Virus record (IMG/VR): IMGVR_UViG_3300005581_000157
Location: 1-21,924 of that record
DNA from: a virus
Length of the DNA stretch: 21,924 bases
Direction: 5' to 3' (one strand)
The notes below the pieces were generated by a model, which was given only the letters and a program-made list of their open reading frames with translations, had not been told where the DNA came from and did no database searches. Positions 1 through 21,375 of the stretch are shown here, in pieces. How positions within the stretch are numbered: position 1 is the first letter of the stretch; every line of letters begins with the position of its first letter. The translations under genes were made by a program, and so were the position numbers.

Positions 1-3000
1 TCTTTAACTAGCTTGTAGGTGTCACCAATGGTTCGTAAACCCGATGGGCCACCATAGTCACCGCCTGGCTTGCCCGTTGCGGCATTCACTAATCCACCAA
101 ACTCTCGAACACCAAACAACAAGTTGGTCATGAAAGAAATGTTTTCTTTTATTAAATGTCCAAGAATCGATAGCGGGTCTTCCCAATCCCAATCGCCGGA
201 GTCCCCTGGCGTTAATGCGTCCTTCATTGCTTTAACTAAGATGACGGGAACGGTGTAGAGCAACAGGTAGTCAGCGGCTAATTCAGCGCGTGAGACGTCT
301 CTAGCTTTTCGGGTCATGGTTTTTTCAACACCCACATTTAATGCGGCATTAAAAAAACTATAAAACGTCGTGAACAGTTTTAACGCTGGACCACCCCGCT
401 CAATGGCCGCTAAATCCTTACCGGTGCCAGAGCCTTGTGCGTCAATCACCGCCTGGTCAGCTAGTGCAACCGATCGCTCTTGGTCGCTGCCTGAAGCGAT
501 CGCTTTTTCATACGCTCCCCACCAAGTAGGAATGTCGACCAATTGTTGCGCTCGAAGCATTAAGGCATAGGCACCTGCATCGATGTTTCTACGCAGATCA
601 CTTTGTCCTTTAACGACTGAGCGCAATTCAGCCAATTCGCGCATGCGTGTTAAAAACCGGTTTTCCATAAACGACGACATGGCTGCAATTTCACCGGCTG
701 TCTCGATGGGATGGGCCATAAACTTTTGTAAGCCGCGAACAATCCACGGAGCACCGACACGAACGACGGATTGCGTAATTCCAAAAGGCTGCGTTAAGGC
801 TGACATCACATTAAAACCGAGACCAGCAACAGAGACGCCTTGCCGAATCCAGCCTAGACTTTTCTCTGCCGCGTTAGCTGCACCGCGGTCGCCTTCAGCC
901 GTGTCTTTTAACCAGGACTTAAATTGCTGATGAACTTGTGCTCCGTATTTCTCGCGCATTACTTCAGCAATTTTTGAATCTTTAATTAATCGATTGGTAT
1001 CAATTAACCATTCATGCCAGGCCAAGTCGTGAATAACTTCATTGACGCCTTGGTAAATGCCATCCAATGAATACAACAGTGGTCTATTTTTTACGGCATC
1101 AGCGCGGGTCTTCGTAAACGATCTGCGTGTTGTCGCAGAGGTATAGGCACTTTGTAATTGTTTCTTAGCCTCTTCAGCTTCTAATTGCGTCTCAGCTCGC
1201 TCACTTGCCATGGGGTCATACTTGATGGGGTAATAACCACCGCGAAGGTTTAAATCTTGACCGTCTCTGGTTTGAACTTGTAATGCTCTGACCTCAATCC
1301 AAGTAGGCTCTTTACCCATGACGCGCTTTTCTTTAGCGGCAATCAATGGACGATACGATTCAAAGTGATCCCACACACTTTGCACGAACTGCCAATCCGC
1401 CGCGGTCAAGGTATCTAAGACCGGTTTAATTTGAGACAGGGTCCAACCTTCACCATCCAGCAAACGCTGCTGGTTACCCTCGTTGCCCATATTTAAAGCA
1501 ACAGCCAATACCGCTTCATGGTTTAGGCTTCGATTGATGCTTGGAAAAAACTGACCCTTACCGCCCAACTTTCCTTGGGCCAATACCGGTTTGATTAATT
1601 CAGTTAATGCTTGTGTTGCTTCCTTACGCATTTGAATTTCTTGATCCCCTGCCACATTGGCAGGTCGGATGATGTATTCCCAAAGGAAACCACCATCGAA
1701 ACCACCGTCCATAATGCGCGCCCAGGTGGCTGCTTTAATATGAGCAGCCCAAAACTTCTTAACTGAATCCAACGCTTGGCCAGATAACGTGTTCGATGTT
1801 CTGTTGTTGGCTTGCCTGTCACCAGCATAATTAGTAATACTGGCCACGATATCGTTGCGAATAGCTGCAAATTCACGCGCATCTTTGGCTGTCAATAACT
1901 TATTTTTAAGTCGACCCAAATGTTCAATTTGCTCAATCGTGTCGCGCAATCCTCGAATTTCTTCGACCGTCATATTTTTATAATTCTGACGATAAAGCTC
2001 GTTCTCTAATGATGGCGGTATGTTGGGCTCAATACCTGCGTCGCGTTGAGACTCAATCCATGTTGCTAGACTGGTTTGCTTATCAATAGACTTTAAGCTG
2101 GCGCTTGGCACAAAACTAAAGCGCTCCAGCATTTGTGCGATCTGATCGTAATACTCAGGGTCGAGCGTTTTGCTACGCTTATCAAAGCGCTTGAAATACG
2201 CCACCGCTTTTAAGACTTCAACTTGCGCAGCCATAGCTTCTTTGGCAGCGGTCGCATTGATGATTTGATTGCGCTTTTCTTCTGCTGCTTTGGCCACATC
2301 ATTTTTAATGAATGCGTCCTGTGCTGCTTTGGCTGCTCGCACTTCGGCTGCGGTATATTGCGATGGCTTTAAATCGCGGATACGCGTGCGCGCAATGAGC
2401 CTGGCAGCAAACTCTCTAGCCGCCTTGGGTATTAATGGCGCGGTAATTTTAGAGCCCTTGCTATTTGTTCTACCCGTATCTTCACGAACATTTAGCGCAG
2501 TCTCTAGTGCTTTGGCTTCTGTATAAAGCGCCTTTAAACGCATGTCATTGTGAATGGCTGCGTCTGCTGCACGTTGGATAGCTTCGGGTGTGGCCAGCTC
2601 ACCATGGCGCTCGAGCATGTATTTATCAGCCAGCAACGAAATCGCGTCCGCCGGTTTAGGCGAGGCTGCAATAGTACGGACCAGCTCATCGCCTGAAGTC
2701 AGACCAAACAACTCCGCTACCAGATCAGGCGCTATCCCTTCTTTGGCAATCATTTTTAAATCAGTCAAACGCGCAACAACGGCGTCATCCAACCCCATGG
2801 AATTGACAACAGCCGCTGACAACCTACCTGATGCAAGCCCTTCCAAGTTTAAACTTGACCCTGGTAGCTCGTCGGTAAAAATGGTGGGGTCCACAAAGCT
2901 TGAATACTGCGTGCGACCTGATAGCTCTTCTTGGAACCTTTCTTCAAACTCAGTCAGATCGTGGCGACCATCTTCGTCTTTGGTCAGGTAGCCATCTTCA

Positions 3001-6000
3001 GCTAACGATGCACCCATCTCATCAATGCTTAAACCACCTTCAGCACGGACGACCGGTTTACCAAATAAGGGGAACGGTATTTTTTCATCCAAGCCCCACT
3101 GGCTAGAGACTTCTTCACGACGCAATCCACCCAGCTTGGCCATGGCCACAAAGAGTGAATCAATTTGTGGGTCAACCATGCCAGGCATCGATTTGCGTGG
3201 CTCGGTCGTTTTTAGTTTGTCGTCCGCCGATATCTTAGCTGTTAAGAATTGCCAAGCTCGGTAGATGGGCTGCGACATAATTTCGCGACGGGCATCCATC
3301 ACCGCTTCGTTGCGCAATCCTTTGGCTGTCGCTTGCAGCTCTTTTAATACTTTGCTGCGTGCGTTACCCAGCCACTTCATGTCAGCCAAGCCACGCACTT
3401 GCAACTCATCAATGGCTTGTTGAGTCGCCGCTACTCCGAGATCGTGGTACGCCTTAAAGTCAGCAATTAAGCCAGCACTGTTTTCTGGGGTGAACAATGG
3501 GCCCATCGCCCTGGCTGATTCAGCCGCTTTGATTTGCTCTGTGGTTGCCAGCATGCGATCAAACACACCACGCACTTCGTCGCTTAGTTCGACATTGAGA
3601 TTTTTGAGCTCTTTGTAAATGTTTAGCAACCAAGACCGAAACTTTTGGAATACCGATTGCAGCTCGAGTGTTGGAGCATTACCTTCAAAGGCATACGCTT
3701 CAAAGCCGCGTGCAAATGTCTCATGGTATTGCCGCTGCTCTTCTAGCGGCATCGACGTCCAAATCGAAATAGCGGACCGCTCTGGCGTGGCTTTAATGCC
3801 GAGCCAATCGAGCACAATATTCATGTCGTTAACTATGGACATCTCAGCGTCAGATGCGCCAAGCGCTTTGGACATGCCTTCAATACGCGCAGCTAGATCG
3901 GCCTGAACTTGTAAAAAGAAGTGGCCTGATTCATGGAGGAACGTGGATAAGTCAGCGTTTTTAAGTAACGCAATAATTGATGGTACGCGGGTGATATCGT
4001 CGCCAAAAGATATGGCGCCGCGAGCTTGCTGGTTTAGTTCTCCGGCTTTGTCGGAAGATTGCGCATCCCCGCTGAGTACATCTCCACCGGATTGTCTGCT
4101 CGTGGTTTCTCGTACCTGGCGATCTGCGCTTTCAATCCCAGAACGAATGGATTGTCCGGCGAATAATCCGGCAACGCTTCCAGCCGAGCCAGGGATTTCT
4201 TCAGATGATCCAGTTGTGATGCCATCGAGTTTCTCCTGATATTCGTGACTAAACGCCACTTGAGTATCGTACCAAAACTGACCTGCGAACGACACACCTT
4301 CTACCGAAGCAGCAACACGGAATGCGAGTTCTTCTAGCTCGTCAGCTTTCCGTTCCATTGTAATTGAGATTTCCTCATCACTCAACTCATTAAAATCGCT
4401 CATCCCGTAGCGCTGCTCAAACTCCGGCACATATTGGATACGCACACCCACTGCTGCCGGCATGCCCCCGGCAGATGCTTCGCTCATACGCCGACCGTCA
4501 ACAATAACGGTCAGAAATTCCACGCCTTCTTTGGCAAGTTCAGCCAGCATTTGCTCAAGCTTTTCTTGGGCAGCCGCCTCGCGGAAATAAATCTCCACGC
4601 CAGGACGATGGCGTAAGGGGTCATACTTCTCGTTGGCACGCAAGACACGCGACAAGAAGGTGCTGTCTTGCTGCGCTGCTTGTGCCTGGCGCAGCATCTC
4701 CGCCCACAGCGTGTTGGCGTTGTAGCCCTCACGGGTGACAACCTCCAAATCTAGCGAGCGCTCGACGCCGCCGTAGCGACCCTCGGTGGACAGTGCTTTA
4801 GAAGCCAGCACCATGTTGCCTTCGTCAGCTTCGTAGATGGCAATGCGTATCTCGTTGGCCAAGCGCGCCATGTCGGCGTCGGTTGGCACAAAATCCACGC
4901 CTTGGGTGTCTGCCGACATTTGCGTCGATAGGCCGCCAACAAAACGGTCAACCTCACGCTCTAGCGCAGCAAGCTCGGAACGGGCAGCAACCTTCCTAGC
5001 AGCAACATCTTGAAGGCGCTGGTTGGCGCGCTCGACGTTGGCCAGCAGCCTGGTAGCTTCTGCGGGTGGGCGTACAATCTTTTGCAGTTCGGCGATGCGC
5101 TTTTTTGATCCCTTGTACGGTTCAATCTCACCGGACTGAAGGCGGCGCAGCTCGTCTATTTCGGCTGCATGCATTTGCTCATGCGCCTCGATTGCTTTGA
5201 CGGCTTTTGCTGTGTCCTCGCTGGCTGTAGCCACGTCTTTGCTTGGAGGCGAGGCATCGATAATCGAGCGCAACTCTTTCACGCGTGCTTGCTGTGACGT
5301 GCCAGTCAGGCTTGCCTCAAGCTCAAAGGAGCCCCCCTCGCCGGCTGCGTTGGTCCAGTTATTGATGGTCCAGACTTCTTTTTCAACAAACCACACCACG
5401 GCTTGCAGATCGTCGTCGTTGATGTTGGCCAGCGTGTTATTCGTAGCTAGTTGCGCGTCGTCGCGAATAGCTGTAGCTGCTGCGGTAAACACATCCTGAC
5501 CAAAGCCAAATTGCAGCGTCGTTGTAGCATCTTCACGCATGTCGCCTGAGACGCCAGTTTCAGCCATGCTTGGAATGCGTCGGCCACCAGACAAGCGCTG
5601 CAACATGCGCGCTGCCCATACGTCGATGGTTGCTCGTTCGCGAAATCCAATCAGGTTGCCAGAGAAGTTCAGCGCTTTGGGTGCAGTGCCGCCACGGGCA
5701 ATGTCCGGATCAGCGTTCTTAACCACACGCCACAAGTCCACCATGGCGCGGATGACATTCTTGCCGTTGAACCCGTACTTTGCGCCGCTCTCTTTTGTTG
5801 GCAGTAACGCGTCAGGAATCTCGCGTGCGGAGCGAACCGCTTGCAGTTTCTGCTGGTACTCCGGCAGCGCCTTAATAGCTTTCTTGCTCAAGCCTTCTGC
5901 CATGCGATCGTTGAACCAGGCGCGCAGGTCGATCTCGAGATCATCTAAGTTACTTGCCCATTGCTCCCACTGCGGCATTAGCTCATCAAAGTCACCGCGC

Positions 6001-8954
6001 ATGGCTCGACGCATCGCGTCAACCGCGTTGTACCAATTGTCGCGTACTGGCGTGTTAGGGCTAGTTGCGCCCAGCAAGTCGGCAAACAGATCACCCAGTC
6101 CGCCAAACTCCTGACGTAAGCGCGAGCGCATAGCCTTGTACCAACCAGCCTGGGCCAGGATATTTTGCGCATTCTTGTCGCCGGTTTGCGCACGCACGAA
6201 GATGTTTCGCACTTCCTCGAGCATGCCACGCGCAATCGCGTTGACACGGCGCGTGTAGTTTGCAGTGTTAGGCACCAGCGCATTACCATCAGCACCTGCG
6301 CTGAAATCGTAAGGCGTGTTCTGGTATTCGTGCAGGACCTTTCCGTCCTTTATTTGGCTACGCACATAAATAAGCGGAGCCCACCCTTGCGACGTGGGGT
6401 GCGCCAGTTTATGGCCACGCACAACTTGCGTCAGTTGTGCCACCGTCATGCCAATAGCAATCGCGCTGGCTTCAATTGAAGTGCGCTCCTCTGGACTAAT
6501 GTTTGCCCGTGTACCGGTAGCACGCTGGCCGCGCTCTGCCACCATTTGCAGATTGTCTACCTTGGAATCGTTGGTTCCTGACTGATTGAGAATATTTGTA
6601 GCTACATTTTTTCCATCAATCTCAGAAAGATATTGTTTTGCAAATGCTGGATTAAGAACAATTTCGCCCTCACCAACATTACCCAACACTGCGTTACCTT
6701 CTTTAATAGCTTGCAATAAATCTTTGATCGGAATGCGAAATGTGCCAGTTACCCTATTTGCGCGAGTTACACCAAATTGTTTTGTCCAATTTGCCATACC
6801 AGAAGTTGGCAAACCTCGGCCACCACCATTAGTAAGCGAAGTTGCAAGCATTTCATCACGATTAACAGATTCCCATTTTTTGGAAAGATGATTTTCGTGA
6901 TCAGCAACGCGAGTCAATACAACATTGCCATTTTCATCTACATTAAGATTACCGTTTCCAGCAAACGTGCCATTGGCTAAAGAAACTTCTGGAACTCCAG
7001 GATGATTTCCACCAAATGCTTCATTTGATAAACGTCCAATTTCTTGTAATACGCTTTGAGCATTTAAATTGTTTGGGTTATTTACCGCCATCTGATCCAA
7101 CGCCGGACCCGTCACGCTTTCAGCTTGCGTTTTTAATTGGTATCGTTGGACCAGCTCTTCCGTTGTAATTCCTAGTTTGGCTGCTTGAACTGCATAAAAG
7201 CTTGCCAGCAAATCGGCATAGGCGGCATTGGTCTCTGTCGTAAACCTGCCCGTTGCGTTTAATTCGTTTAGGAATTGATCGCGAACTTTTCCTTTTGACT
7301 CGTTAAACACCTCATCATTTTTTGTCTCAATCAGTATCTTTTCTAACTGAGCATTCATTTCCTGATTAAAGGTTTTAGCGTATTGCTCGCTCTCTTTAAA
7401 CGTATAGCCATTGGGGTCTAGCTGAATGTTATCGATGAGCTTTTGGTTTAAGTCCGTGCCAGAAATATTGGCGACATACTCGGCTGTGGGTATCCGAATA
7501 AAACCATTGCTTTGTACGGCGTCGTTTAATTGTTCTGCAACGCTTGGCAATACTTTGGCAACTTCTTCTGCAACACCCGATTGCATCAAGGTCTGAGCGG
7601 AAATATAAATATCTTGCGCTGGTGTGCCGTCGGTTGTGGCTGATACAAAGCTTTGAAATGTTTCTGTGTCGCGTGCGCGAAGCTTGGACTCTTCTGTGGC
7701 TGCGGTAATGGTTTCAATGAACTGCTTGGTGCGCGTTGACTGCTGGGTCTTTTGTTCGTGGCTTTGTAAATCAGTGACCACGGACTGCATCAGTTTGCCA
7801 ACAGCGACATTGCCGCCTGAACCAATGATGGTGGCAATAACAGTTTGTGCAACCGCTGCGGGTTGCTCCCGCAAGAACGACTCAAAACTTCGATCGGGAT
7901 GCAGGGTTGCATACGTGTCGAGATTTTGCAGTAGTGTTGTGGAAACCTCACCAGGTATCTCAAGCGCAAGATTGTTTAAGAACATGCGAGAAAGGGACGA
8001 CCCGATTTTTACGTCTTTGACTAATTTTAAAATCGGTGCAATTTCAAACGCTGCTTCTAGTCCACCCTGGCGTAATCCATAACCTAATGCTGCTCCTGGC
8101 TCAAGTCCTTCTTTTCTGGCTTCGTTGTACGCAGTGCCCCCTGCTGATGTGGCCAATAATGACAGTGAAGCATAGGGTCCCACAATAGGAATGAAGGCTG
8201 TTGGTACGATCAGCATGTTTTGCACAAACGACTGAACGCCTGATTGCACGCCACCACCACCAATGGATTGATCGGGCGGACTTATTCTCTCTGCTGTCGC
8301 TTTTGCTAATTCTGCTTCGTTTTTCCAATAGTTACCAAAAGCGCGCAAGGAATCGCGCAACGGGCTGTTGGCATCATTTACTTTTTTAATTCTGGCGGCC
8401 ATCGATTCTGGCAGCAGCGATAAACCTAGATTGCTGTTGGCATCAATTAGATTAGCAAAGTTTTCGCTACCTGCACGCCATGCTCCAGCGAAGCCAGAAC
8501 TTAGACTATATGTTGCAGCGCCAACTTCATTGACTAGACCACTATCGCCTTTTGAAAAAATATAATTTAACGATCGCTCGATAATGGAGAGTGACTGTGA
8601 ATCGTCATGCGCTAACTTTGCAAAATCAGCATTAGTATATTTTTGACGCAGTACAGGCGCTTTAGCCGTATTGTCGTCGAGTGCTTTTAATTGAACTTGT
8701 CGAGCACTGTCTTGTGGCAGGGTTTGCACCACCGCCGTTGGGACGTTAAGCACCGCGGCGTCTTGCTTTTGTTTTGCGTAGACATCGGGGTTGGTTGACA
8801 AGGCTGGGACGGTTGTAGCTTTATATAACTGTCGTTGCCGTGCACGCTCTTCTTCTGCAAATTGAACCATTGGGTCAACACTGTCGACACCTGGGCTAGT
8901 TTGTTGACGCATGCGCGCACCATTACGGAGAACATCGATGTAATCGTTATCCAT
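1..8954 (-). CDS. Giant polyvalent-type virion/ejection protein (3' end beyond window)
   Basis: From ATG 8954 the frame stays open for at least 2984 codons and leaves the left edge without a stop. Regions by residue: 140-400 helical with hydrophobic spans (FIPIVGPYASLSLLATSAGG near 257; TVIATIIGSGGNVAVG near 375); 430-620 helical, ending LGITTEELVQRYQL; 660-790 ADP-ribosyltransferase-like (R682, S706, E762/E764); 820-1215 possible HhH-glycosylase-like (D1111, R1116); 1262-1340 coiled coil; 1345-1590 a conserved block with RPGVEIYF and TVIVDGRR; 1674-1678 HESGH zincin motif with E1752; about 1974 GGLSIDEMGASL; 2645-2914 a helical module resembling the C-terminal LPD38-type domain of large polyvalent proteins. 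Its place equals T7 gp16, so it is probably packaged and ejected. Domain names are motif-based. GAGG lies 12 bases before the ATG. Confidence 0.88.
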   Translation of the reverse strand, partial: MDNDYIDVLRNGARMRQQTSPGVDSVDPMVQFAEEERARQRQLYKATTVPALSTNPDVYAKQKQDAAVLNVPTAVVQTLPQDSARQVQLKALDDNTAKAPVLRQKYTNADFAKLAHDDSQSLSIIERSLNYIFSKGDSGLVNEVGAATYSLSSGFAGAWRAGSENFANLIDANSNLGLSLLPESMAARIKKVNDANSPLRDSLRAFGNYWKNEAELAKATAERISPPDQSIGGGGVQSGVQSFVQNMLIVPTAFIPIVGPYASLSLLATSAGGTAYNEARKEGLEPGAALGYGLRQGGLEAAFEIAPILKLVKDVKIGSSLSRMFLNNLALEIPGEVSTTLLQNLDTYATLHPDRSFESFLREQPAAVAQTVIATIIGSGGNVAVGKLMQSVVTDLQSHEQKTQQSTRTKQFIETITAATEESKLRARDTETFQSFVSATTDGTPAQDIYISAQTLMQSGVAEEVAKVLPSVAEQLNDAVQSNGFIRIPTAEYVANISGTDLNQKLIDNIQLDPNGYTFKESEQYAKTFNQEMNAQLEKILIETKNDEVFNESKGKVRDQFLNELNATGRFTTETNAAYADLLASFYAVQAAKLGITTEELVQRYQLKTQAESVTGPALDQMAVNNPNNLNAQSVLQEIGRLSNEAFGGNHPGVPEVSLANGTFAGNGNLNVDENGNVVLTRVADHENHLSKKWESVNRDEMLATSLTNGGGRGLPTSGMANWTKQFGVTRANRVTGTFRIPIKDLLQAIKEGNAVLGNVGEGEIVLNPAFAKQYLSEIDGKNVATNILNQSGTNDSKVDNLQMVAERGQRATGTRANISPEERTSIEASAIAIGMTVAQLTQVVRGHKLAHPTSQGWAPLIYVRSQIKDGKVLHEYQNTPYDFSAGADGNALVPNTANYTRRVNAIARGMLEEVRNIFVRAQTGDKNAQNILAQAGWYKAMRSRLRQEFGGLGDLFADLLGATSPNTPVRDNWYNAVDAMRRAMRGDFDELMPQWEQWASNLDDLEIDLRAWFNDRMAEGLSKKAIKALPEYQQKLQAVRSAREIPDALLPTKESGAKYGFNGKNVIRAMVDLWRVVKNADPDIARGGTAPKALNFSGNLIGFRERATIDVWAARMLQRLSGGRRIPSMAETGVSGDMREDATTTLQFGFGQDVFTAAATAIRDDAQLATNNTLANINDDDLQAVVWFVEKEVWTINNWTNAAGEGGSFELEASLTGTSQQARVKELRSIIDASPPSKDVATASEDTAKAVKAIEAHEQMHAAEIDELRRLQSGEIEPYKGSKKRIAELQKIVRPPAEATRLLANVERANQRLQDVAARKVAARSELAALEREVDRFVGGLSTQMSADTQGVDFVPTDADMARLANEIRIAIYEADEGNMVLASKALSTEGRYGGVERSLDLEVVTREGYNANTLWAEMLRQAQAAQQDSTFLSRVLRANEKYDPLRHRPGVEIYFREAAAQEKLEQMLAELAKEGVEFLTVIVDGRRMSEASAGGMPAAVGVRIQYVPEFEQRYGMSDFNELSDEEISITMERKADELEELAFRVAASVEGVSFAGQFWYDTQVAFSHEYQEKLDGITTGSSEEIPGSAGSVAGLFAGQSIRSGIESADRQVRETTSRQSGGDVLSGDAQSSDKAGELNQQARGAISFGDDITRVPSIIALLKNADLSTFLHESGHFFLQVQADLAARIEGMSKALGASDAEMSIVNDMNIVLDWLGIKATPERSAISIWTSMPLEEQRQYHETFARGFEAYAFEGNAPTLELQSVFQKFRSWLLNIYKELKNLNVELSDEVRGVFDRMLATTEQIKAAESARAMGPLFTPENSAGLIADFKAYHDLGVAATQQAIDELQVRGLADMKWLGNARSKVLKELQATAKGLRNEAVMDARREIMSQPIYRAWQFLTAKISADDKLKTTEPRKSMPGMVDPQIDSLFVAMAKLGGLRREEVSSQWGLDEKIPFPLFGKPVVRAEGGLSIDEMGASLAEDGYLTKDEDGRHDLTEFEERFQEELSGRTQYSSFVDPTIFTDELPGSSLNLEGLASGRLSAAVVNSMGLDDAVVARLTDLKMIAKEGIAPDLVAELFGLTSGDELVRTIAASPKPADAISLLADKYMLERHGELATPEAIQRAADAAIHNDMRLKALYTEAKALETALNVREDTGRTNSKGSKITAPLIPKAAREFAARLIARTRIRDLKPSQYTAAEVRAAKAAQDAFIKNDVAKAAEEKRNQIINATAAKEAMAAQVEVLKAVAYFKRFDKRSKTLDPEYYDQIAQMLERFSFVPSASLKSIDKQTSLATWIESQRDAGIEPNIPPSLENELYRQNYKNMTVEEIRGLRDTIEQIEHLGRLKNKLLTAKDAREFAAIRNDIVASITNYAGDRQANNRTSNTLSGQALDSVKKFWAAHIKAATWARIMDGGFDGGFLWEYIIRPANVAGDQEIQMRKEATQALTELIKPVLAQGKLGGKGQFFPSINRSLNHEAVLAVALNMGNEGNQQRLLDGEGWTLSQIKPVLDTLTAADWQFVQSVWDHFESYRPLIAAKEKRVMGKEPTWIEVRALQVQTRDGQDLNLRGGYYPIKYDPMASERAETQLEAEEAKKQLQSAYTSATTRRSFTKTRADAVKNRPLLYSLDGIYQGVNEVIHDLAWHEWLIDTNRLIKDSKIAEVMREKYGAQVHQQFKSWLKDTAEGDRGAANAAEKSLGWIRQGVSVAGLGFNVMSALTQPFGITQSVVRVGAPWIVRGLQKFMAHPIETAGEIAAMSSFMENRFLTRMRELAELRSVVKGQSDLRRNIDAGAYALMLRAQQLVDIPTWWGAYEKAIASGSDQERSVALADQAVIDAQGSGTGKDLAAIERGGPALKLFTTFYSFFNAALNVGVEKTMTRKARDVSRAELAADYLLLYTVPVILVKAMKDALTPGDSGDWDWEDPLSILGHLIKENISFMTNLLFGVREFGGLVNAATGKPGGDYGGPSGLRTIGDTYKLVK
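3690..3945 (-). other. Zincin metallopeptidase motif region in the giant protein
   Basis: Residues 1668-1681 include STFLHESGHFFL, a full HExxH motif: two zinc-binding histidines (H1674, H1678) and the catalytic glutamate (E1675). E1752 in ARGFEAYAF, 74 residues after the second histidine, is a good third zinc ligand. The same pairing of HESGHFF with a later GFEAY helix occurs in polyvalent phage proteins. All key residues are present, so activity is plausible. The substrate could be a host protein or the virion protein itself. Confidence 0.7.
6545..7085 (-). other. AT-rich island in the giant gene encoding an ADP-ribosyltransferase-like domain
   Basis: By hand count, G+C is 18/60 at 7021-7080 and 19/60 at 6601-6660, against 31/60 at 7081-7140 and 39/60 at 6481-6540. 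The island codes for residues about 624-804. It contains VVLTRVAD (R682), MLATSLTNG (S706) and VGEGEIVLNP (E762, E764), the order and spacing of the R-S-ExE class of ADP-ribosyltransferases. The match is by eye; the first Ser of the usual STS is Ala. The borders look like domain replacement within the giant gene. Confidence 0.5.
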
Positions 8955-8957
8955 TAT

Positions 8958-11108
8958 TTAGCGTAGCCTCAAAGTATAATTGTAGAAAAACTTTTTTACA
9001 TTAATTTCGGTCGGCGCATAATCCTTATTGTCTGGAAATTCTAAATACAATGAACTCATTGTTTTTATAATCTCACTTCGACGATCGGGTGGCACAACAA
9101 TCTTTTGAACATCTTGTGGTGATAAGGTTGCCGCTGGCACCGTAGTGGTTCCCCACAAGAATCCTTCTGTCGTAATGGTGCGCGCCATAATGTCACGCAT
9201 AACGATTGTTTTTTGCTCCACAGAAATTTTGTCGCGAGACGTTTTTGCTAATGCATCTAATGCATCATCGACTCGCGACTTAACAAGTCCGAGTTTAATT
9301 TTTTCTTGTTCTGTTTTATTTTCTTTGTAAGGTCGCAAATCAAATTCTTGAGCCACTTGATTAAACGTATTGACATCGATGTGAGCTGTGCGTTTACCTT
9401 CGGCATTTTGTAACGAATCCCAGCGCTGAACTAATGTTGCCGTATGTTGGTCACCCAATTTTGGCAACAACGCTTGCACCTCTTGTCGCGACATTTTTTC
9501 TAATACATCAGGATCGCTATAGGTCAAATACTCTGGGAAAGTTTTCTTAGCCATTTGCTGCTGGCGTTGGTTTTCTTCTAGGAGGGTGCGCGACTTCATC
9601 GCATACGCACGGTCTTGCAAATGCTCGGTAATGGATCGTTGCGAGGTGGCATCTAAGTTCAACCAGGCGGAAGATTTATGATAGTTTTGATTTTTAGAAA
9701 TCATCTCCATAACGGCATTTGTATTTCCTGCTTTCATCTCACCTTGCGATGCATCCCACGCCGTTTTTCTGTTGCGTAACTGATTAATGGTTTCTGTGAC
9801 TAACTCGGGATTGTCTTTAAATTTTTCGCGAACTGCTGCTTCCATTTTAAAAAGATCAACAGCTTTGTTGTAATTGTTAGATGCTCCAACATTGGTTGTC
9901 CAAACATTGTCAGCTTCAGTGCTGGCTAGTTGTGTTGTGTTTAATTTCTTAACTTGCGCATACAGTTTTTGATAGTCGTTTTGATCAATTTGCGTACTGA
10001 CGCTTGCTAAAAAATCAGCCGCTTCACCTGTTTTATTTTGAGTCAGCATTTGGTTGACTACTTGACCTGCCAAGTTGGTGTTTGCTTTTTTAACTAAATC
10101 TTTGGCGTAGTCCGAGTCTTTTCCAAACCCATTAATCGCTGCTAGGTTTTCTACTGTCTCAATCATTTTTTTCTTGTTTTCAGCATAAGCACTTGTTGGT
10201 TCACGCCATCCTGTTGAGACACTTAATGCACTATCGGAAAATAAGCTGACTTTTGCTGTTGTGTCCTTCACAGAAAACATATGCAGTTGTTGATCCAAAA
10301 TTGCTTTAGTTGGCGGATCAATTTGCTTACTGTAGCGATCAACATACTTTTGTGCTTGTTCAAACGTGCCAGTGGTCACAATAGAATTGAAAACCCCTTG
10401 GTGTAATTTACTTAATGTGTCGGCGACTAATTGTTGAGTGGTTGATGATTTTTCATCAAAGCCCCGTGCAGCCGCTGCTTTAATAACACCGCCTTTAACC
10501 AAATTAACTTGATCTGCAAATACACCCGTTGAATTTTCAAAATCCATCCAGTTATGGGTTGCCGTAGTAACGGCTAATTTAATCTGATTATCGAGCGTAT
10601 TAAGTTTATAGTTTTCATATTCACGCGCACTGTGCTGGTTGACACCAGCCACAAATTGATTATGCAGTGTGTTGGCCGCTTGGCTAAAGCGCAAACGCTG
10701 CGCATCATTGCCTAGGGTTTTACTAAGTGAATCAATTTTGTCTTTAAATTTTTGCGAATAATAGTCAGTAACGGATTCCGTTGAACTGTCACCCTTAGTA
10801 TTTTTAAGTGCATCCTGCCCTTTTAAATAGCTATAACCAACGGTGGTTCCATCTGGATTTTTTCCATACGTTAATAATTCTTTTTCTAGGGTTAAGTTAT
10901 TAACGGCATCAATGACACGCGTCTGATTTACGTCTTGCGTGATAGCGTCTTGAATGGCACCTAAACTGGCCGCACCACGCATCATCCCTTCACCAAATTT
11001 TTGTTGGGTGTTACCTACTGAACTTGATGGAAATTCAGGCGCGGAGACGCGAGCCTGGGGTTGAGCCTGGTCAGAGACTGCGGTTTCGTAAACGGGAACG
11101 CGAGGCAT
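8958..11108 (-). CDS. Internal virion (ejection) protein, T7 gp15-like position
   Basis: This 716-residue protein begins MPRVPVYETAVSDQAQPQ, an opening common to large podophage internal virion proteins. It is almost entirely helical, rich in Gln, Asn, Lys and Thr, with no transmembrane span, signal peptide or catalytic motif that I can see. LAAINGFGKDSDYAKDLVK and LVTETINQLRNRKTAWDAS are representative helical repeats. In T7 the equivalent gp15 builds the periplasmic tube with gp16. The gene lies between the gp14-like gene and the giant gene, whose ATG starts three bases after its TAA. It is AT-richer than the head genes (for example 22/60 G+C at 10081-10140). No clear Shine-Dalgarno site precedes ATG 11108. 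Confidence 0.8.
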   Translation of the reverse strand: MPRVPVYETAVSDQAQPQARVSAPEFPSSSVGNTQQKFGEGMMRGAASLGAIQDAITQDVNQTRVIDAVNNLTLEKELLTYGKNPDGTTVGYSYLKGQDALKNTKGDSSTESVTDYYSQKFKDKIDSLSKTLGNDAQRLRFSQAANTLHNQFVAGVNQHSAREYENYKLNTLDNQIKLAVTTATHNWMDFENSTGVFADQVNLVKGGVIKAAAARGFDEKSSTTQQLVADTLSKLHQGVFNSIVTTGTFEQAQKYVDRYSKQIDPPTKAILDQQLHMFSVKDTTAKVSLFSDSALSVSTGWREPTSAYAENKKKMIETVENLAAINGFGKDSDYAKDLVKKANTNLAGQVVNQMLTQNKTGEAADFLASVSTQIDQNDYQKLYAQVKKLNTTQLASTEADNVWTTNVGASNNYNKAVDLFKMEAAVREKFKDNPELVTETINQLRNRKTAWDASQGEMKAGNTNAVMEMISKNQNYHKSSAWLNLDATSQRSITEHLQDRAYAMKSRTLLEENQRQQQMAKKTFPEYLTYSDPDVLEKMSRQEVQALLPKLGDQHTATLVQRWDSLQNAEGKRTAHIDVNTFNQVAQEFDLRPYKENKTEQEKIKLGLVKSRVDDALDALAKTSRDKISVEQKTIVMRDIMARTITTEGFLWGTTTVPAATLSPQDVQKIVVPPDRRSEIIKTMSSLYLEFPDNKDYAPTEINVKKFFYNYTLRLR

Positions 11109-11129: not shown

Positions 11130-11663
11130 TTATAATGTTGATTGCGATCGTTGGCTGTATTTGTACCAAGACTCAGCCACGGACCCGCCTGACGACAACA
11201 AGCTTCCAGCCGCATTACCCAACGGGCTCATGCTGTTGGATACCGCGCTATAGATGTTGGAGGCGTTTTTGTCTGACACAGCTTGTGTACGATAGCCAAA
11301 CGCTGCCTTTAACGCGTTCGATTGCACGGTCAATGCATCGGCTTCACTTAATTGATCGGTGCTATTTAAGACGTTTTGAGCCGTGGCGCTTTGCAGATCA
11401 ATTCCGTTGGCCGCCATTGATACGCGTTGTGCGCTTTTAATTCTAGCGGCGCGCAATCGCACGTTTTGTTCTGCGCGCTGACCGGCAAGCAACATTGCTT
11501 GCGCATTGGTTTCATTAATTTGCGCATTGATGTTGGCCATCTGCGACTGAAACTTGTAATTCTGAATCGTTGCTTGTGTTTGGTAATAACTACCGATGGC
11601 CGAATTAATCGCGCCAAACGTCATCATCACGGGAGATATTCCTGCTACTGCTTCAAATGCCAT
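11130..11663 (-). CDS. Internal virion protein, T7 gp14-like
   Basis: The protein has 177 residues. The N-terminus is hydrophobic and small-residue rich (ISPVMMTFGAINSAIGSYYQ). A long helix rich in Gln, Asn and Ala follows (QSQMANINAQINETNAQAM, GQRAEQNVRLRAARIKS), and then a Gly/Ser-rich C-terminus. MAANGIDLQSATAQNVL is typical of the gp14-like internal virion proteins of podophages, which form a channel through the outer membrane after ejection. The gene is first in the ejection cassette and has AGGAG (11670-11674) before ATG 11663. Role and size fit, but gp14 proteins are poorly conserved, so the call rests partly on position. Confidence 0.78.
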   Translation of the reverse strand: MAFEAVAGISPVMMTFGAINSAIGSYYQTQATIQNYKFQSQMANINAQINETNAQAMLLAGQRAEQNVRLRAARIKSAQRVSMAANGIDLQSATAQNVLNSTDQLSEADALTVQSNALKAAFGYRTQAVSDKNASNIYSAVSNSMSPLGNAAGSLLSSGGSVAESWYKYSQRSQSTL

Positions 11664-15799: not shown

Positions 15800-16819
15800 T
15801 TAGGACACAACAGATTCAGTGTTTAGAATCTGATCAACACGACGCAGAGGAACACCCAAAAAGCTCAAATAGCTCTGTGGAGTACCGAACTGCGACAAGC
15901 TTTCGTTGATCTTCAACACGTACTGCGATTTGTCCATAGCAGCCAGAGCAAGACCGGAGTGTGTGGTGCGGTTCATGTAGAACGCAGCACGACCCATGGC
16001 CATGTTTGGAATACGATACAACGCACGGGCCATCAATTTAATGATCGCTGTTGAAGCGGACGCCGCTTGAGTCGTGGCTTGAGCAATCAAGTCAGAGACG
16101 TCGATGTTACAAATACGCACGACATAACGCCAATCTTTAACGACCAGGCCGTTTTTCCACTGGTAGTGAGTACGGTACGCTTGGTAACGTGCACCGTTGG
16201 AATCCCACACTGTATTTAAACCTAAGTCGTCATGAATTAGACCGGCTTTCGATCCTTTCGGGAATGGACAAAACACGGTGTTGTCGCCCCACACTACGAG
16301 GTAGATCGACGTATTGTCGGAGCCTGAACCACCGGCTGACAAAATGTTTTGTGCGTTACCTGCGGAGAGCGACGAGTAACGTGTAGCCAAGCCAAGATAC
16401 TGCTTTGGATCGGTGCCAGGGTTACCGTAAAAAAGCGTTTGCGCTTGGGTTTGGTTCATGGATTCCAAGAACGCTTTATCTTCCGACAAACGAAACTGCG
16501 ATGTGTTGCCGTTCAGTTCAGCCAAGTCTTTATCGACTTCAGAATACGCTTCCAGCATGCCGCACGATTCATCGACTTGTGCCGTCGTTGACTTCGATGT
16601 TGGGATACCTTGGTTGATGGCGCGCCAGTAAACGGTCGGCAAGCCGGTACGAATAACGGAGCGGTGACCTGTTGGCAAGTTGCCTTCCATGAACATACAG
16701 TCTTCGAGGATTTCATTCGATTGCGACAGCAGTTCAGCAATGGTCGGAACCTTGCCATCGGGGTCAAGTCGTTTGGCCCAATCGGCCAGGGTTAATGCGG
16801 TGGTAGCTAGAGTTGCCAT
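15800..16819 (-). CDS. Major capsid protein (BPP-1 Bbp17-like)
   Basis: This 339-residue protein forms the icosahedral shell. The family is recognised from the N-terminal LTLADWAKRLDPDGKVPTIA, NEILEDCMFMEGNLPTGHR, VYWRAINQGIPTSKSTTAQ, the LFYGNPGTDPKQYLGLATRY segment, and VFCPFPKGSKAGL. The C-terminal half carries LMARALYRIPNM and SYLSFLGVPLRRVDQIL. It belongs to the HK97-fold capsids of BPP-1-type podophages. Order (scaffold, capsid, cement) matches BPP-1. AAAGGA lies about nine bases before the ATG, a good site for a highly expressed gene. No N-terminal prosequence is apparent, in line with separate scaffold use. Confidence 0.92.
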   Translation of the reverse strand: MATLATTALTLADWAKRLDPDGKVPTIAELLSQSNEILEDCMFMEGNLPTGHRSVIRTGLPTVYWRAINQGIPTSKSTTAQVDESCGMLEAYSEVDKDLAELNGNTSQFRLSEDKAFLESMNQTQAQTLFYGNPGTDPKQYLGLATRYSSLSAGNAQNILSAGGSGSDNTSIYLVVWGDNTVFCPFPKGSKAGLIHDDLGLNTVWDSNGARYQAYRTHYQWKNGLVVKDWRYVVRICNIDVSDLIAQATTQAASASTAIIKLMARALYRIPNMAMGRAAFYMNRTTHSGLALAAMDKSQYVLKINESLSQFGTPQSYLSFLGVPLRRVDQILNTESVVS

Positions 16820-17991: not shown

Positions 17992-19716
17992 TTAAACCTC
18001 CACGGCACTCGGTGAGCCGTATCCACTGAACATATTCATCACATCCGTTAACGCTGTTTTGTTGTCTGGGCTAGTCGGTGTATTGGCCATTTGCTGCTGA
18101 ACCGCCGCACCCTGCTGCATCGCTTGCGCAGCCGCTTGGGCCTGTTGCGCTTTGGCTCTGGATTCACGCAGTAGTGCCACTTTGTCGTTAGCCACAATCA
18201 AATGCGGGTCCACTCCCAACATGTCGGAGTACGCATCAGCCCAGGCGTCAGAATCAAACTTGTCTAGTACATCGGGTTTAAATTGTGCGACCTGCCCCAA
18301 GTTACCCACGAACCTATCAATACCGTTCGTTGCAATCGCACGTTGGGCTTGGGCTAAGATCGAGACAAACTCCACACTGATATCCATGCCTGATAGTTCA
18401 GGCGGTGGTGGTGGAATGACACCGGCTTCGACCATGCGTTGAAACGTCATATCAATTAATGGGTCCAGCAATTCGTTATGCAGTCGCTCAATGACAGGAC
18501 CCAACATCAACAGTTTTTCTTCATGACGTTCGGCCACTTCCGTGGCTGTCATGTTGGAACTAGTGCTGTTGGCCAGCATTAAAAACAAGTCCGCATAGAA
18601 GGACCCTTTAATACGTTCGCGCACATCTTGAATGTCCGCCAATAAGTGATTCAAATCCAAGTTGACTTCAAAGGCCGAACGAATACCACCACCGGGAGAG
18701 GTTGAGTCGTAGTAGCTAATGCCCCCTGGCATTCTGTCCACATCACGATTTTTTAATGCCGTGGGCACTTGTAGTGGCGGCATGGTTTTGTAATCAATGC
18801 CCTGCGCTTTACGAAGTTGTTCATGCTGGAGTTGTTTGACGTCCCCCAACGCTTCCATGCCAGGAGAGTTACCGTAGATGTCACCACCTGCTACCGCCCA
18901 CCGAGGTGCAACCGCTGGGAAATACTTAAACCCTGACTCACTTAAATACCTGCCAGGCTCCGCATTGATCTCGAAGTAGCAGGACTTAAACGGCATGTTC
19001 TTGCTGTCTTTCTTGCTGGGGTCACGGTCTTCGCGTGGCTCAATGGCATGAATGATCGTGATCCACTGATCGAGACTGCCACTATCAAAAAGATTCTTGG
19101 TGCTGGTGGTGCACTTGTCATACCCAAACTCACCCACAATTTCAGCGACGGTCTTTTGAAACTCACGATAGAGCGTGTTCACATTGCCGCGATAATCCGT
19201 CGCAATGCAATACTCACCGCAGGTTAGCGTTTGGTGATGAATGATGTTTTGATAGTCGGGCATGATGACTGCCGCTCCAGTGCCAAACACACCCAGCTCT
19301 TCATACATTGAATGCAATGACCGATATGTATTTGACTTTTGAAACACCGCCAACATCAATGTCGTCACATCGTTTAACCACAACTTAACCGGTCCATACT
19401 TGGCCAGCTCCGGGTCAGCAATGCTTAACCTAAACCAGGGACGCGCAGGAGAAGTGGCACCACTCATCATGCCGGCACCTAAAATGCGTAGTGCTCGGGT
19501 CCCCGTATTGTCGTAAATGTTGTTGTTGCGCTTCCAGCCCTTGTCGCGATCTTGCACAAAGAATCGGCCAGAGCGTGGCAGCATATAGTCAGACAACTCC
19601 TTCCAATGACTCCACCAGGACGCACGCTCAGACTTCAGCATGCCCCATCGTGTAAACAACTTGTCTTTGGTAGGTGATTTAGCGTTTGACTGCGCGTCAC
19701 TGGTGTACTCACTCAT
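17992..19716 (-). CDS. Portal protein (podovirus head-to-tail connector)
   Basis: This 574-residue protein matches the podophage 'head to tail connecting protein' family, the dodecameric portal at one capsid vertex through which DNA is packaged and ejected. Recognisable family features are the N-terminal WWSHWKELSDYMLPRSGRF (34-52), DNTGTRALRILGAGMMSG (69-86) followed by the SPARPWFRL stretch, LGVFGTGAAVI (141-151), the late NMTATEVAERHEEKLLMLGP segment, and a proline run before ELSGMDISVEFVS. The C-terminus is Gln/Ala-rich (AQQAQAAAQAMQQ) and probably helical and exposed in the capsid interior. Length is usual for the family. The gene is one base downstream of the 108-residue gene, and GGAGG within its last codons could serve the small ORF that follows. 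Confidence 0.93.
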   Translation of the reverse strand: MSEYTSDAQSNAKSPTKDKLFTRWGMLKSERASWWSHWKELSDYMLPRSGRFFVQDRDKGWKRNNNIYDNTGTRALRILGAGMMSGATSPARPWFRLSIADPELAKYGPVKLWLNDVTTLMLAVFQKSNTYRSLHSMYEELGVFGTGAAVIMPDYQNIIHHQTLTCGEYCIATDYRGNVNTLYREFQKTVAEIVGEFGYDKCTTSTKNLFDSGSLDQWITIIHAIEPREDRDPSKKDSKNMPFKSCYFEINAEPGRYLSESGFKYFPAVAPRWAVAGGDIYGNSPGMEALGDVKQLQHEQLRKAQGIDYKTMPPLQVPTALKNRDVDRMPGGISYYDSTSPGGGIRSAFEVNLDLNHLLADIQDVRERIKGSFYADLFLMLANSTSSNMTATEVAERHEEKLLMLGPVIERLHNELLDPLIDMTFQRMVEAGVIPPPPPELSGMDISVEFVSILAQAQRAIATNGIDRFVGNLGQVAQFKPDVLDKFDSDAWADAYSDMLGVDPHLIVANDKVALLRESRAKAQQAQAAAQAMQQGAAVQQQMANTPTSPDNKTALTDVMNMFSGYGSPSAVEV

Positions 19717-20045: not shown

Positions 20046-20501
20046 TTAATTTTCCTCGTATGTAATAGCGCGACGCGTCATCAAGCCAGCACTCTCATTG
20101 GTCATCTGATCTTCGATCGCATCAATGTCGGTGTGCTCAGTAACGATTAACGTCGTCCACCAGGTGTCAGCATGCGCAACACCAACACGCTTAAACCCGG
20201 CATTGGCAGGTAGTACGTGATAGCCCGTTAGTCGTTGGGGGCCATCGTCAGTGGTAACCGTGATGTCGCCATTAATTACACAGATGTTGTCGCAGTTCGT
20301 TAACGCACCGGTCAACATGGTGCCGGCAGGAATTAGTCCTGTTCTGGCACACATGCCACCATGCACAACGTGGGTGATCGATAAATTAATTTGTGGCAGA
20401 TCACGCGTATAAGACTCCAACTCGCGCACCGTCTCAGGGTCAGGCATGCCCGACAAAATATTGACAGCGACCGTGGCTTCCATGGCGTCTGTTGCGTTCA
20501 T
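20046..20501 (-). CDS. Cupin-like phage protein
   Basis: This 151-residue protein has the outline of a single-domain cupin (small beta barrel). HVVHGGMCAR (44-53) leads into IPAGTMLTGAL (57-67), then NICVINGDITV and TDDGPQRL, a strand-rich pattern matching cupin motif 1, and a later HADTWWTTLIVTEHTD segment. The usual metal-binding HxH of motif 1 is replaced by TNCDN, so a metal-dependent enzyme is unlikely. A structural or ligand-binding role fits better. Cupin-like proteins of this kind sit near the portal in other podophages, but their function is not known to me. The start ATG at 20501 overlaps the previous stop (TGATG), and the next gene begins one base after its TAA. Confidence 0.68.
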   Translation of the reverse strand: MNATDAMEATVAVNILSGMPDPETVRELESYTRDLPQINLSITHVVHGGMCARTGLIPAGTMLTGALTNCDNICVINGDITVTTDDGPQRLTGYHVLPANAGFKRVGVAHADTWWTTLIVTEHTDIDAIEDQMTNESAGLMTRRAITYEEN

Positions 20502-20875
20502 CAGCCACCCAACAAGGTATTTTTACCCAAGGTCAAGGACGCTGGGTCCACACCCACCGTGCCTGTCAACATCGTGTCAGACGGCCCACCCGCTTGTGCT
20601 GTTTGTTTAGTCGTTGATTGCAATACGCCGGTGTCTGCGACTTTGGCTGGATTGTCTAGCAATGGAACTGGGGCTGGAGCGGGTGCAGGAGCTGGGGCAG
20701 GTGAACTATTTCCGCCGCCTCCACCTCCACCTCCGCCCGTATCTTGATTCGTTTGTTGCGCAACGGGAGCAGGTGCAGGAGCCTGTGCTTTAGGCGCCTT
20801 GGGCTTATCAACTAATCCTAAATCTTGTCCGACAGCCGCTATAACACCCACTATCGATTTAAAAGTCTTACCCAT
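20501..20875 (-). CDS. Small phage protein with Pro-Ala and Gly tracts and C-terminal TMLTG...LLG motif
   Basis: The protein has 124 residues and no family I can name. The first 20 residues (MGKTFKSIVGVIAAVGQDLG) are mildly hydrophobic. A disordered middle follows, with Ala-Pro repeats, nine consecutive glycines and a second Pro-Ala repeat. The C-terminus, SDTMLTGTVGV then LTLGKNTLLGG, is shared with the 108-residue protein two genes downstream; together with the preceding xDTGxxQ it suggests a common 40-residue tail. The start is ATG at 20875 with AAGGAG closely upstream. It overlaps the acetyltransferase stop by one base (TAATG) and the next gene by one base (TGATG). The setting suggests a minor virion or assembly factor, but that is inference. 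Confidence 0.75.
   Translation of the reverse strand: MGKTFKSIVGVIAAVGQDLGLVDKPKAPKAQAPAPAPVAQQTNQDTGGGGGGGGGNSSPAPAPAPAPAPVPLLDNPAKVADTGVLQSTTKQTAQAGGPSDTMLTGTVGVDPASLTLGKNTLLGG
20663..20737 (-). repeat. Simple-sequence tract encoding Pro-Ala repeats and nine glycines
   Basis: Bases 20711-20737 are a run of GGN codons on the minus strand (nine glycines). Bases 20664-20702 encode alternating Pro and Ala. A short NSSP linker lies between them. This is an in-frame low-complexity linker rather than a mobile repeat. Its purine/pyrimidine asymmetry makes it prone to slippage, so length could vary between related phages. Confidence 0.8.
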
Positions 20876-21375
20876 TACAACTCCTTGCTATAAATGACGT
20901 TTTGCATGTTGTAACCTCGGCACTCTAAAATCTTGCTCATCACAGTCGCTGGCCTGGCTGGCCACACCATGACGGCGGCACCGCGTTGTTTGGCTGCTTC
21001 TTCTGTGGCTTTCATTAAGCGCAGTCCTATTGTTGAATTACGCCATGCACGATCAACGAACAACGAATCATTAATGACTGACGTTGTGTCCTTAGAATGC
21101 AAGTCAACATTGATTGCATTTGATGAGTAACCAATCAATGTGCCGTCCTGGTAGGCGGCCAAAATAAAAAATACGCCAGCCTTTTCTAACTGGTTGTACA
21201 ACTCGTCATGCAATGCAAACGGTGCGTCAGTGACATCACCACACACTTCGTCGTAATGAGCACGGGCCATTGGCCTGGCTTGCTCCATCAACGTGGAATA
21301 CGTGACTTCGACGATGGTAGTAGCGCCGCTTTTGTTAATGCGTACTGCTTGTCTGTCATCAGTGCATGTGTTCAT
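20875..21375 (-). CDS. GNAT-family N-acetyltransferase
   Basis: This 166-residue protein looks like a GCN5-related N-acetyltransferase, which transfers an acetyl group from acetyl-CoA to an amine. Strand 4 is suggested by the stretch around VINDSLFVDRAWR (residues 100-112), followed by the acetyl-CoA-binding helix STIGLRLMKATEEAAKQRGA (about 114-133). The R112 to G117 stretch stands in for the usual Q/RxxGxG/A loop, with its first glycine lost. The C-terminal LECRGYNMQNVIYSK is a typical closing strand. The substrate cannot be deduced. The gene starts inside the terminase gene (17-base overlap), and its TAA stop shares a base with the next ATG (TAATG), so it is co-translated with packaging genes. 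Such acetyltransferases recur near the portal in podophages, and their role there is unknown to me. Confidence 0.82.
   Translation of the reverse strand: MNTCTDDRQAVRINKSGATTIVEVTYSTLMEQARPMARAHYDEVCGDVTDAPFALHDELYNQLEKAGVFFILAAYQDGTLIGYSSNAINVDLHSKDTTSVINDSLFVDRAWRNSTIGLRLMKATEEAAKQRGAAVMVWPARPATVMSKILECRGYNMQNVIYSKEL

Follow-up and report, generated by a model that had tools for sequence, protein, structure and literature searches.

The window analysed here is the entire IMG/VR record IMGVR_UViG_3300005581_000157, a viral fragment of 21,924 bp. It carries a giant open reading frame (ORF) on the minus strand (3..8954), which begins with an ATG at position 8954, 3 bases past the stop of the upstream gene, and continues for 2984 codons with zero internal stops. 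The frame is still open at the window edge, its 3′ end being lost with the end of the record, and the continuity originally predicted for it is confirmed. Because residue 2984 aligns with residue 2475 of the L012 ORF (2534 aa), and residue 2982 with residue 1991 of Bbp10 (2052 aa) of Bordetella phage BPP-1, the giant ends ~60 residues short of both relatives, which suggests that ~60 further residues follow beyond the edge and that the full-length protein has roughly 3,045 aa. A chance ORF was rejected, since collinear counterparts of the frame are annotated as genes of 1,902-3,125 aa in a dozen phages, cultured or complete, and recur as ORFs of 2,500-4,100 aa across many viral contigs. One contig (L014) matches residues 1-348 at 98.6% identity.

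A tblastn search with the giant matched 43 phage records, headed by BPP-1-type Bordetella phages, Caulobacter phages and a Manatee Spring podovirus. Compared with Bbp10 (NP_958679), its N-terminal module is 34.9% identical over 593 aligned positions, its zincin module 51.8% over 247 and its C-terminal module 57.5% over 918, and on the basis of these alignments it is a homologue of Bbp10 within the Bbp10/LPD22 giant family. Limnohabitans phage DC33 (PQ492659.1) is filed under Inoviridae, yet its genome of 39 kb encodes a giant of the Bbp10 type (LPD22, ART-PolyVal), and this classification looks wrong.

Upstream of the giant, likewise on the minus strand, are genes for a 716-aa protein in the gp15 slot (8958..11108), a gp14-like internal virion protein of 177 aa (11130..11663; phrog_418, E 2e-25; Pfam T7_gp14, E 5e-5, below the gathering score), a major capsid protein of the epsilon15/BPP-1 type (GP7; 15800..16819; PF20911, E 9e-137) and the head-tail connector, or portal (17992..19716; PF12236, E 2e-184). 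The window order of tail protein, gp14-like protein, gp15-slot protein and giant is that of BPP-1, where bbp10 is preceded by bbp12 (internal virion protein) and bbp11 (transglycosylase annotation), with the tail fibre genes next. In BPP-1, UFJF_PfDIW6, Pseudomonas phage AF and others, a tail protein, internal virion protein(s), a lysozyme or gp15-slot protein, the giant and a tail fibre or spike follow one another, and in other complete phages the labels 'internal virion protein' and 'structural lysozyme' stand immediately ahead of the giant. The gene order in the window and BPP-1 matches gp14-gp15-gp16 of T7, an operon described with gp16-like proteins of 609-1337 aa (PMC8954989), so the Bbp10-type giants are unusually long. 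As third gene behind the gp14-like and gp15-slot genes, the giant does lie in the ejection-protein slot to which it was originally assigned. As one part of the overall interpretation proposed below, and with the same fairly good probability, we take the source phage to be a BPP-1/epsilon15-type podovirus in which the giant occupies the gp16 position.

The gp15-slot protein of the window is homologous to Bbp11 over the first 302 residues of the latter only, and Pfam detects no known domain in it, including no lytic transglycosylase, though Bbp11 is annotated with one. The part of Bbp11 beyond residue 302, in which a transglycosylase motif is visible by eye, has no counterpart in the window protein. 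Further along the window, a small protein with glycine runs and alternating alanine-proline (20501-20875) lies between two virion-region genes, and an acetyltransferase-like protein (20875-21375; phrog_1249) adjoins the terminase (cf. bbp24 in BPP-1).

Module map of the giant protein

The N-terminal module (residues 1-621; 7092..8954, minus strand, as for all features of the giant) is 25-41% identical to its relatives and has hydrophobic stretches at residues 240-271 and 367-385, in keeping with the hydrophobic N-terminal part noted originally. It includes an LPD22 domain (residues 49-130; 8565..8810; PF18834, E 3e-11) that exceeds the Pfam gathering score, so profile searches recover a polyvalent-protein family, and the original designation of the giant as a polyvalent protein gains further from the ART-PolyVal, PBECR and GNAT domains that relatives carry in one and the same slot.

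A zincin-like metallopeptidase domain (residues 1636-1830; 3465..4049) contains HESGH at residue 1674 and a distal ETFARGFEAY at residue 1745, and in an alignment of 14 sequences H43, E44 and H47 together with the distal E114, A117 and E121 (HExxH plus distal glutamate motif) are invariant, which upholds the zincin recognised in the original prediction. Residues 700-1000 of Bbp10 were used as a seed of the CLCA_X zincin family (PMC3650047), and the window domain is by similarity a homologue of these zincins and a predicted metallopeptidase. It is followed by a middle module common to some relatives (residues 1831-2067; 2754..3464) and by the C-terminal core module (residues 2068-2984; 3..2753), which has a hydrophobic stretch at 2892-2910 and matches phrog_9880 (E = 0), as expected from the proposal that other giant phage proteins share it. 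Sequence searches of solved structures with the giant, the cassette described below, the zincin and a zincin-plus-C-terminal alignment returned zero relatives, Foldseek gave no significant match for a model of the zincin plus C-terminal module, and a Pfam scan of the giant found no SLT or lytic transglycosylase domain.

Between the N-terminal module and the zincin lie two segments of different character. Residues 622-798 (6561..7091) constitute a window-specific cargo domain with no relative in Pfam or viral contigs. Possible R-S-ExE motifs of ADP-ribosyltransferases (ARTs) can be seen in it, with VVLTR at residue 678 and GEGEIVL at residue 761, and it holds the same position as the ART-PolyVal domain of 16 relatives. 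By motif and position, this domain may be an ADP-ribosyltransferase; the ART-like label given originally thus keeps its motif pattern and its place in the protein, but finds no detectable relative.

The second segment (residues 799-1631; 833 residues; 4062..6560) is an exchangeable cassette of two domains. Domain 1 (residues 799-1240; 5235..6560) aligns with the DUF7178 alignment in hhalign (92% probability, E 6e-7, 180 columns), several relatives show weak Pfam matches to this family, and the direct Pfam match of the window domain (E 0.0026) is below the gathering score. Enzyme-like residues are invariant in this DUF7178-like domain. Its relationship to DUF7178 is significant by profile comparison, and any activity is a prediction. 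Matches to HhH-GPD glycosylases are not significant for either cassette domain 1 (E 0.14) or DUF7178 (E 0.21), and the original glycosylase-like assignment is better phrased as DUF7178-like, with glycosylase activity as a candidate function. Our literature search found no paper on DUF7178. Domain 2 (residues 1325-1631; 4062..4982) is without a named family and, in an AF2 model of the cassette (pLDDT 88.2, pTM 0.84), is predicted to fold as a tandem ferredoxin-like domain. Foldseek found nothing in the PDB at E <= 0.001 for the cassette model, and VIA-align listed AcrB-type porter domains alone for the ferredoxin-like part, at Z about 8, a common arrangement. Matches of the cassette in BFVD are unnamed or polyvalent proteins from uncultured phages, and no Pfam LPD or effector family matched it above its cut-off.

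Both cassette domains occur together in every such ORF found in viral contigs that is not cut or frameshifted ahead of domain 2, and two divergent loci in metagenome-assembled genomes (MAGs) have domain 1 alone (L123 and L124). A pattern scan for domain 1 recovered 425 related viral stretches versus only 6 in 84,980 cellular genomes, and tblastn with the window cassette gave zero matches among 50,697 phage records. The pair is also present in giants without the other Bbp10-family modules, alongside SLT or glucosaminidase, InPase, ART-PolyVal and NUDIX domains, which is typical company for polyvalent proteins. Going by these searches, the cassette is previously undescribed and, though widespread among uncultivated phages, lacks a match in the searched phage records. 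In one contig (L013, 1-8541) the giant is broken into two overlapping frames within cassette domain 2, through a frameshift or an assembly error. A Burkholderiales MAG (L138, 1-3234) has a 2986-codon giant with a Bbp10-family zincin and a region that passes the Pfam cut-off for DUF7178 without matching the cassette profile, a second DUF7178 version within the Bbp10-type family. Two large Caballeronia plasmids (NZ_AP024325.1 and NZ_CP084275.1) contain remote matches to cassette domain 2 at 27-29% identity, one of them inside a hypothetical protein.

Exchange of modules in the middle of the giant

The segment from the N-terminal module to the next recognised module ranges from 128 to 1,193 aa across 37 proteins. 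Scans of this cargo slot in 36 proteins, including that of the window, identified ART-PolyVal in 16/36, PBECR1 in 1/36 (BPP-1) and GNAT in 1/36, and additional cultured phages have PBECR5, GNAT and LPD23 there. Closely related giants differ in this segment. Between L006 and L008, identity is 98% in the N-terminal module, likewise 98% in the cassette and 88% in the C-terminal module, but their cargo is unrelated (31%, background); between L019 and L020 it is 91% in the N-terminal module and 98% in the cassette, with cargo at 27%. Conversely, cargo, cassette and zincin are 97-99% identical between L049 and L051, with the N-terminal module at 60% and the C-terminal module at 56%. In the 1,902-aa giant of Vibrio phage MZH0603 the segment is empty, whereas Vibrio phage 1.185.O, 73% identical on both flanks, has 442 residues there, including a GNAT domain. 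Because a filled and an empty form are found in this Vibrio pair, and cargo is swapped between near-identical giants, the sequence comparisons indicate that the middle of the giant is a cargo bay that can be empty and whose content is exchanged among related phages. This exchange was missed in the original prediction, as was the fact that the family is known, through Bbp10 and through a zincin published as CLCA_X.

The cassette follows a history of its own. The C-terminal module of the window is 63% identical to that of L012 and 58% to that of BPP-1, both of which are without the cassette, whereas in several cassette carriers the C-terminal module is 25-32% identical to that of the window, yet the cassettes are 54-77% identical. 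On the C-terminal data, a tree in which the window's cassette neighbours are forced together is 952 log-likelihood units worse (p-AU 8e-74); on the cassette data, constraining the window giant to group with L041, L046 and L056 loses 306 units (p-AU 4e-78). AU tests reject congruence of cassette and C-terminal module in both directions at p < 1e-70, p-values that are optimistic since the clades were picked once the trees had been seen, with very large margins. Given these conflicting identities and trees, the cassette appears as a unit that moves independently of the C-terminal module. In L011 and L013, the zincin lies ahead of the cassette, the reverse of the window order.

Base composition changes along the giant as well, with GC3 at 0.42 in the N-terminal module, 0.23 in residues 622-798, 0.58 in the cassette and 0.45 in the C-terminal module. 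In a homology-blind segmentation by GC3, the composition shifts at codons 629, 794 and 1520, compared with homology borders at 622, 799 and 1631. The first two shifts are 7 and 5 codons off, and the third precedes the end of the cassette by ~110 codons. The motif [AVILMF][LMFYIV]xQ (e.g. VLNQ, LLAQ) is frequent at module borders (59 in border windows versus 20.3 +/- 4.9 in shuffled sequences), and because it was first noticed in the same data as this count, eight previously unused phages were tested, which gave 7 motifs versus 2.6-2.8 expected (p about 0.014-0.025). The window giant has ALDQ at residue 618 (7092..7103), at the border of N-terminal module and cargo, ILNQ at residue 788 (6582..6593), at the border of cargo and cassette, and a looser ELNQ ahead of the zincin. 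On one reading the junction motif would be a zincin processing site, and on another a recombination linker.

Proposed packaging, ejection and cargo delivery

Judging from its gene order and neighbourhood, the giant is probably carried inside the virus head and enters the bacterium by injection. Hydrophobic stretches lie close to both of its ends. We found no virion proteomics or mass spectrometry showing a Bbp10-family giant, published gel work on BPP-1 identified only two abundant capsid bands, and a literature search joining 'polyvalent protein' and 'ejection protein' found no paper. Residues 2404-2699 or thereabouts, in a C-terminal model of modest confidence (pLDDT 70.7, pTM 0.47), resemble the podovirus ejection-core proteins of phages PhiM1 and E1004 (8vb2_A, Z 7.8, 213 aligned, rmsd 4.3; 9vvp_L, Z 7.0, 213 aligned, rmsd 6.1), at scores short of what counts as reliable for helical models, where Z 7-8 may reflect a common helical arrangement. 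The giant showed no significant hhalign similarity to the gp16-type proteins of T7, phiKMV and PhiM1; the best local match, also not significant, has a comparable position towards the C-terminal end in both T7 gp16 and PhiM1, and single-sequence comparisons with gp16 were no better than reversed decoys. The claim that this gene replaces T7 gp16 draws its support from its position in the gene order, the sequence comparisons being not significant. The dual role proposed for the protein, as both conduit and effector carrier, is likely.

Based on the observed family membership, gene order, module map and exchange in the middle, we consider it quite probable that this is a giant polyvalent protein of the Bbp10 family in the gp16 slot, ejected into the host, with fixed ends and an effector cargo bay. 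Its packaging, injection, processing and activities we infer as follows. The giant would be packaged alongside the gp14-like and gp15-slot proteins and then enter the cell by ejection. Assembly and membrane or delivery work would fall to the conserved N- and C-terminal modules, and the bay between them would carry effectors that act on the new host. In the window, this bay would hold a possible ADP-ribosyltransferase and the DUF7178-like/ferredoxin-like cassette, the latter probably nucleic-acid-directed, and the zincin may cut the chain at junctions enriched in [aliphatic][aliphatic]xQ, so that the effectors are released. A bolder generalisation, that ejection proteins of BPP-1-like podoviruses are modular vehicles with fixed ends, a bay with an [aliphatic][aliphatic]xQ processing junction and traded effectors, and that the cassette represents a new widespread class of nucleic-acid-directed effectors, is offered tentatively, and we would sooner expect it to fail in some part than to hold in full.

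A variant that is compatible with this interpretation, and that comes fairly near to an even chance, is that the zincin acts as an effector on host proteins instead of processing its own chain, the giant working uncut. The virion RNA polymerase of phage N4 contains a metallopeptidase domain and is packaged in uncut form according to PMC5512222, but DdrB of phage P1 is processed according to the same paper, and the enrichment of the junction motif near module borders also favours cleavage. It is improbable, though less so than the readings that follow, that the giant is a purely structural or ejection protein whose additional modules serve for length or packing in an internal core and have no enzymatic role in the host. 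The gene position, the conserved ends and the short cargo-free form of Vibrio phage MZH0603 would suit such a protein; however, enzyme families recur in one slot (ART-PolyVal, PBECR, GNAT), enzyme-like residues are invariant in the DUF7178-like domain and the zincin, and cargo is exchanged, not just lengthened. A late-expressed lysis or peptidoglycan enzyme, as the labels 'lysis protein', 'lysin' and 'crystallin beta/gamma motif' of relatives in Caulobacter phages and in PMC9239159 would have it, was rejected as very improbable, since Pfam scans of the window giant and Bbp10 detect no peptidoglycan hydrolase domain and the same genomes hold separate endolysin genes. Least credible is an assembly chimera fusing two phages inside the ORF, which we rejected despite the composition steps at module borders and the absence of the junction 26-mers from any second viral contig (near-identical records may fall outside this search), since the reading frame is preserved over all junctions, the order N-cargo-cassette-zincin-C recurs in many independent contigs and an in-frame 530-bp low-GC segment amid two others would need several joins.

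The giant bears on the question of what phages inject besides DNA and how they adapt it. If the model of a cargo bay between fixed ends is true, near-identical phages that differ in cargo alone, or are free of cargo, are ready natural experiments on the effect of each injected domain on the host or its defences, and the stretch between the two conserved borders is a hunting ground for new anti-host enzymes.

Among known systems, T7 gp16, phiKMV gp37 and the PhiM1 core protein share with the window giant the third place in the ejection operon and hydrophobic stretches, and its C-terminal region has a weak structural match, below the reliability limit, to 8vb2_A and 9vvp_L, whereas the giant is over twice as long, lacks an N-terminal transglycosylase and has no significant sequence similarity to them. 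An N-terminal lytic transglycosylase is not universal in gp16-type proteins, those of P22-like phages being without one. DUF7178 (PF23802) phage proteins, some of which are annotated 'glycosylase', have the same pattern of WY, LSP..N, K...F..N..G....ID..A and QA..W as cassette domain 1; however, they are stand-alone proteins of about 200 aa, and the window domain is double that size and has elaborations, and nearly all occurrences are fusions with the ferredoxin-like domain. With the polyvalent proteins, as presented by Iyer et al. 2017 (PMC5512222), the giant has in common its great length, a zincin, an LPD domain, the virion-gene neighbourhood and the ART, PBECR and GNAT domains of its relatives, and the defining combination of several disparate domains with a zincin or LPD domain is represented by predicted LPD22, zincin and DUF7178-like domains. 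It differs from them in a cassette for which Pfam has no LPD or effector family that scores above the cut-off; the word 'glycosylase' is absent from PMC5512222, and the passages of it that were consulted do not describe the exchange of a defined cargo bay between near-identical proteins. The zincin shows no difference of kind from the CLCA_X zincins (PMC3650047). The closest counterpart is BPP-1 Bbp10, which has the same N-terminal LPD22 module, zincin, C-terminal module (58%) and genomic position, but a cargo slot of ~180 aa with a PBECR1 nuclease in place of the ~1,010 aa of the window with another domain and the cassette. The family itself is a known polyvalent one, and what is new here is the exchangeable bay and the undescribed cassette.
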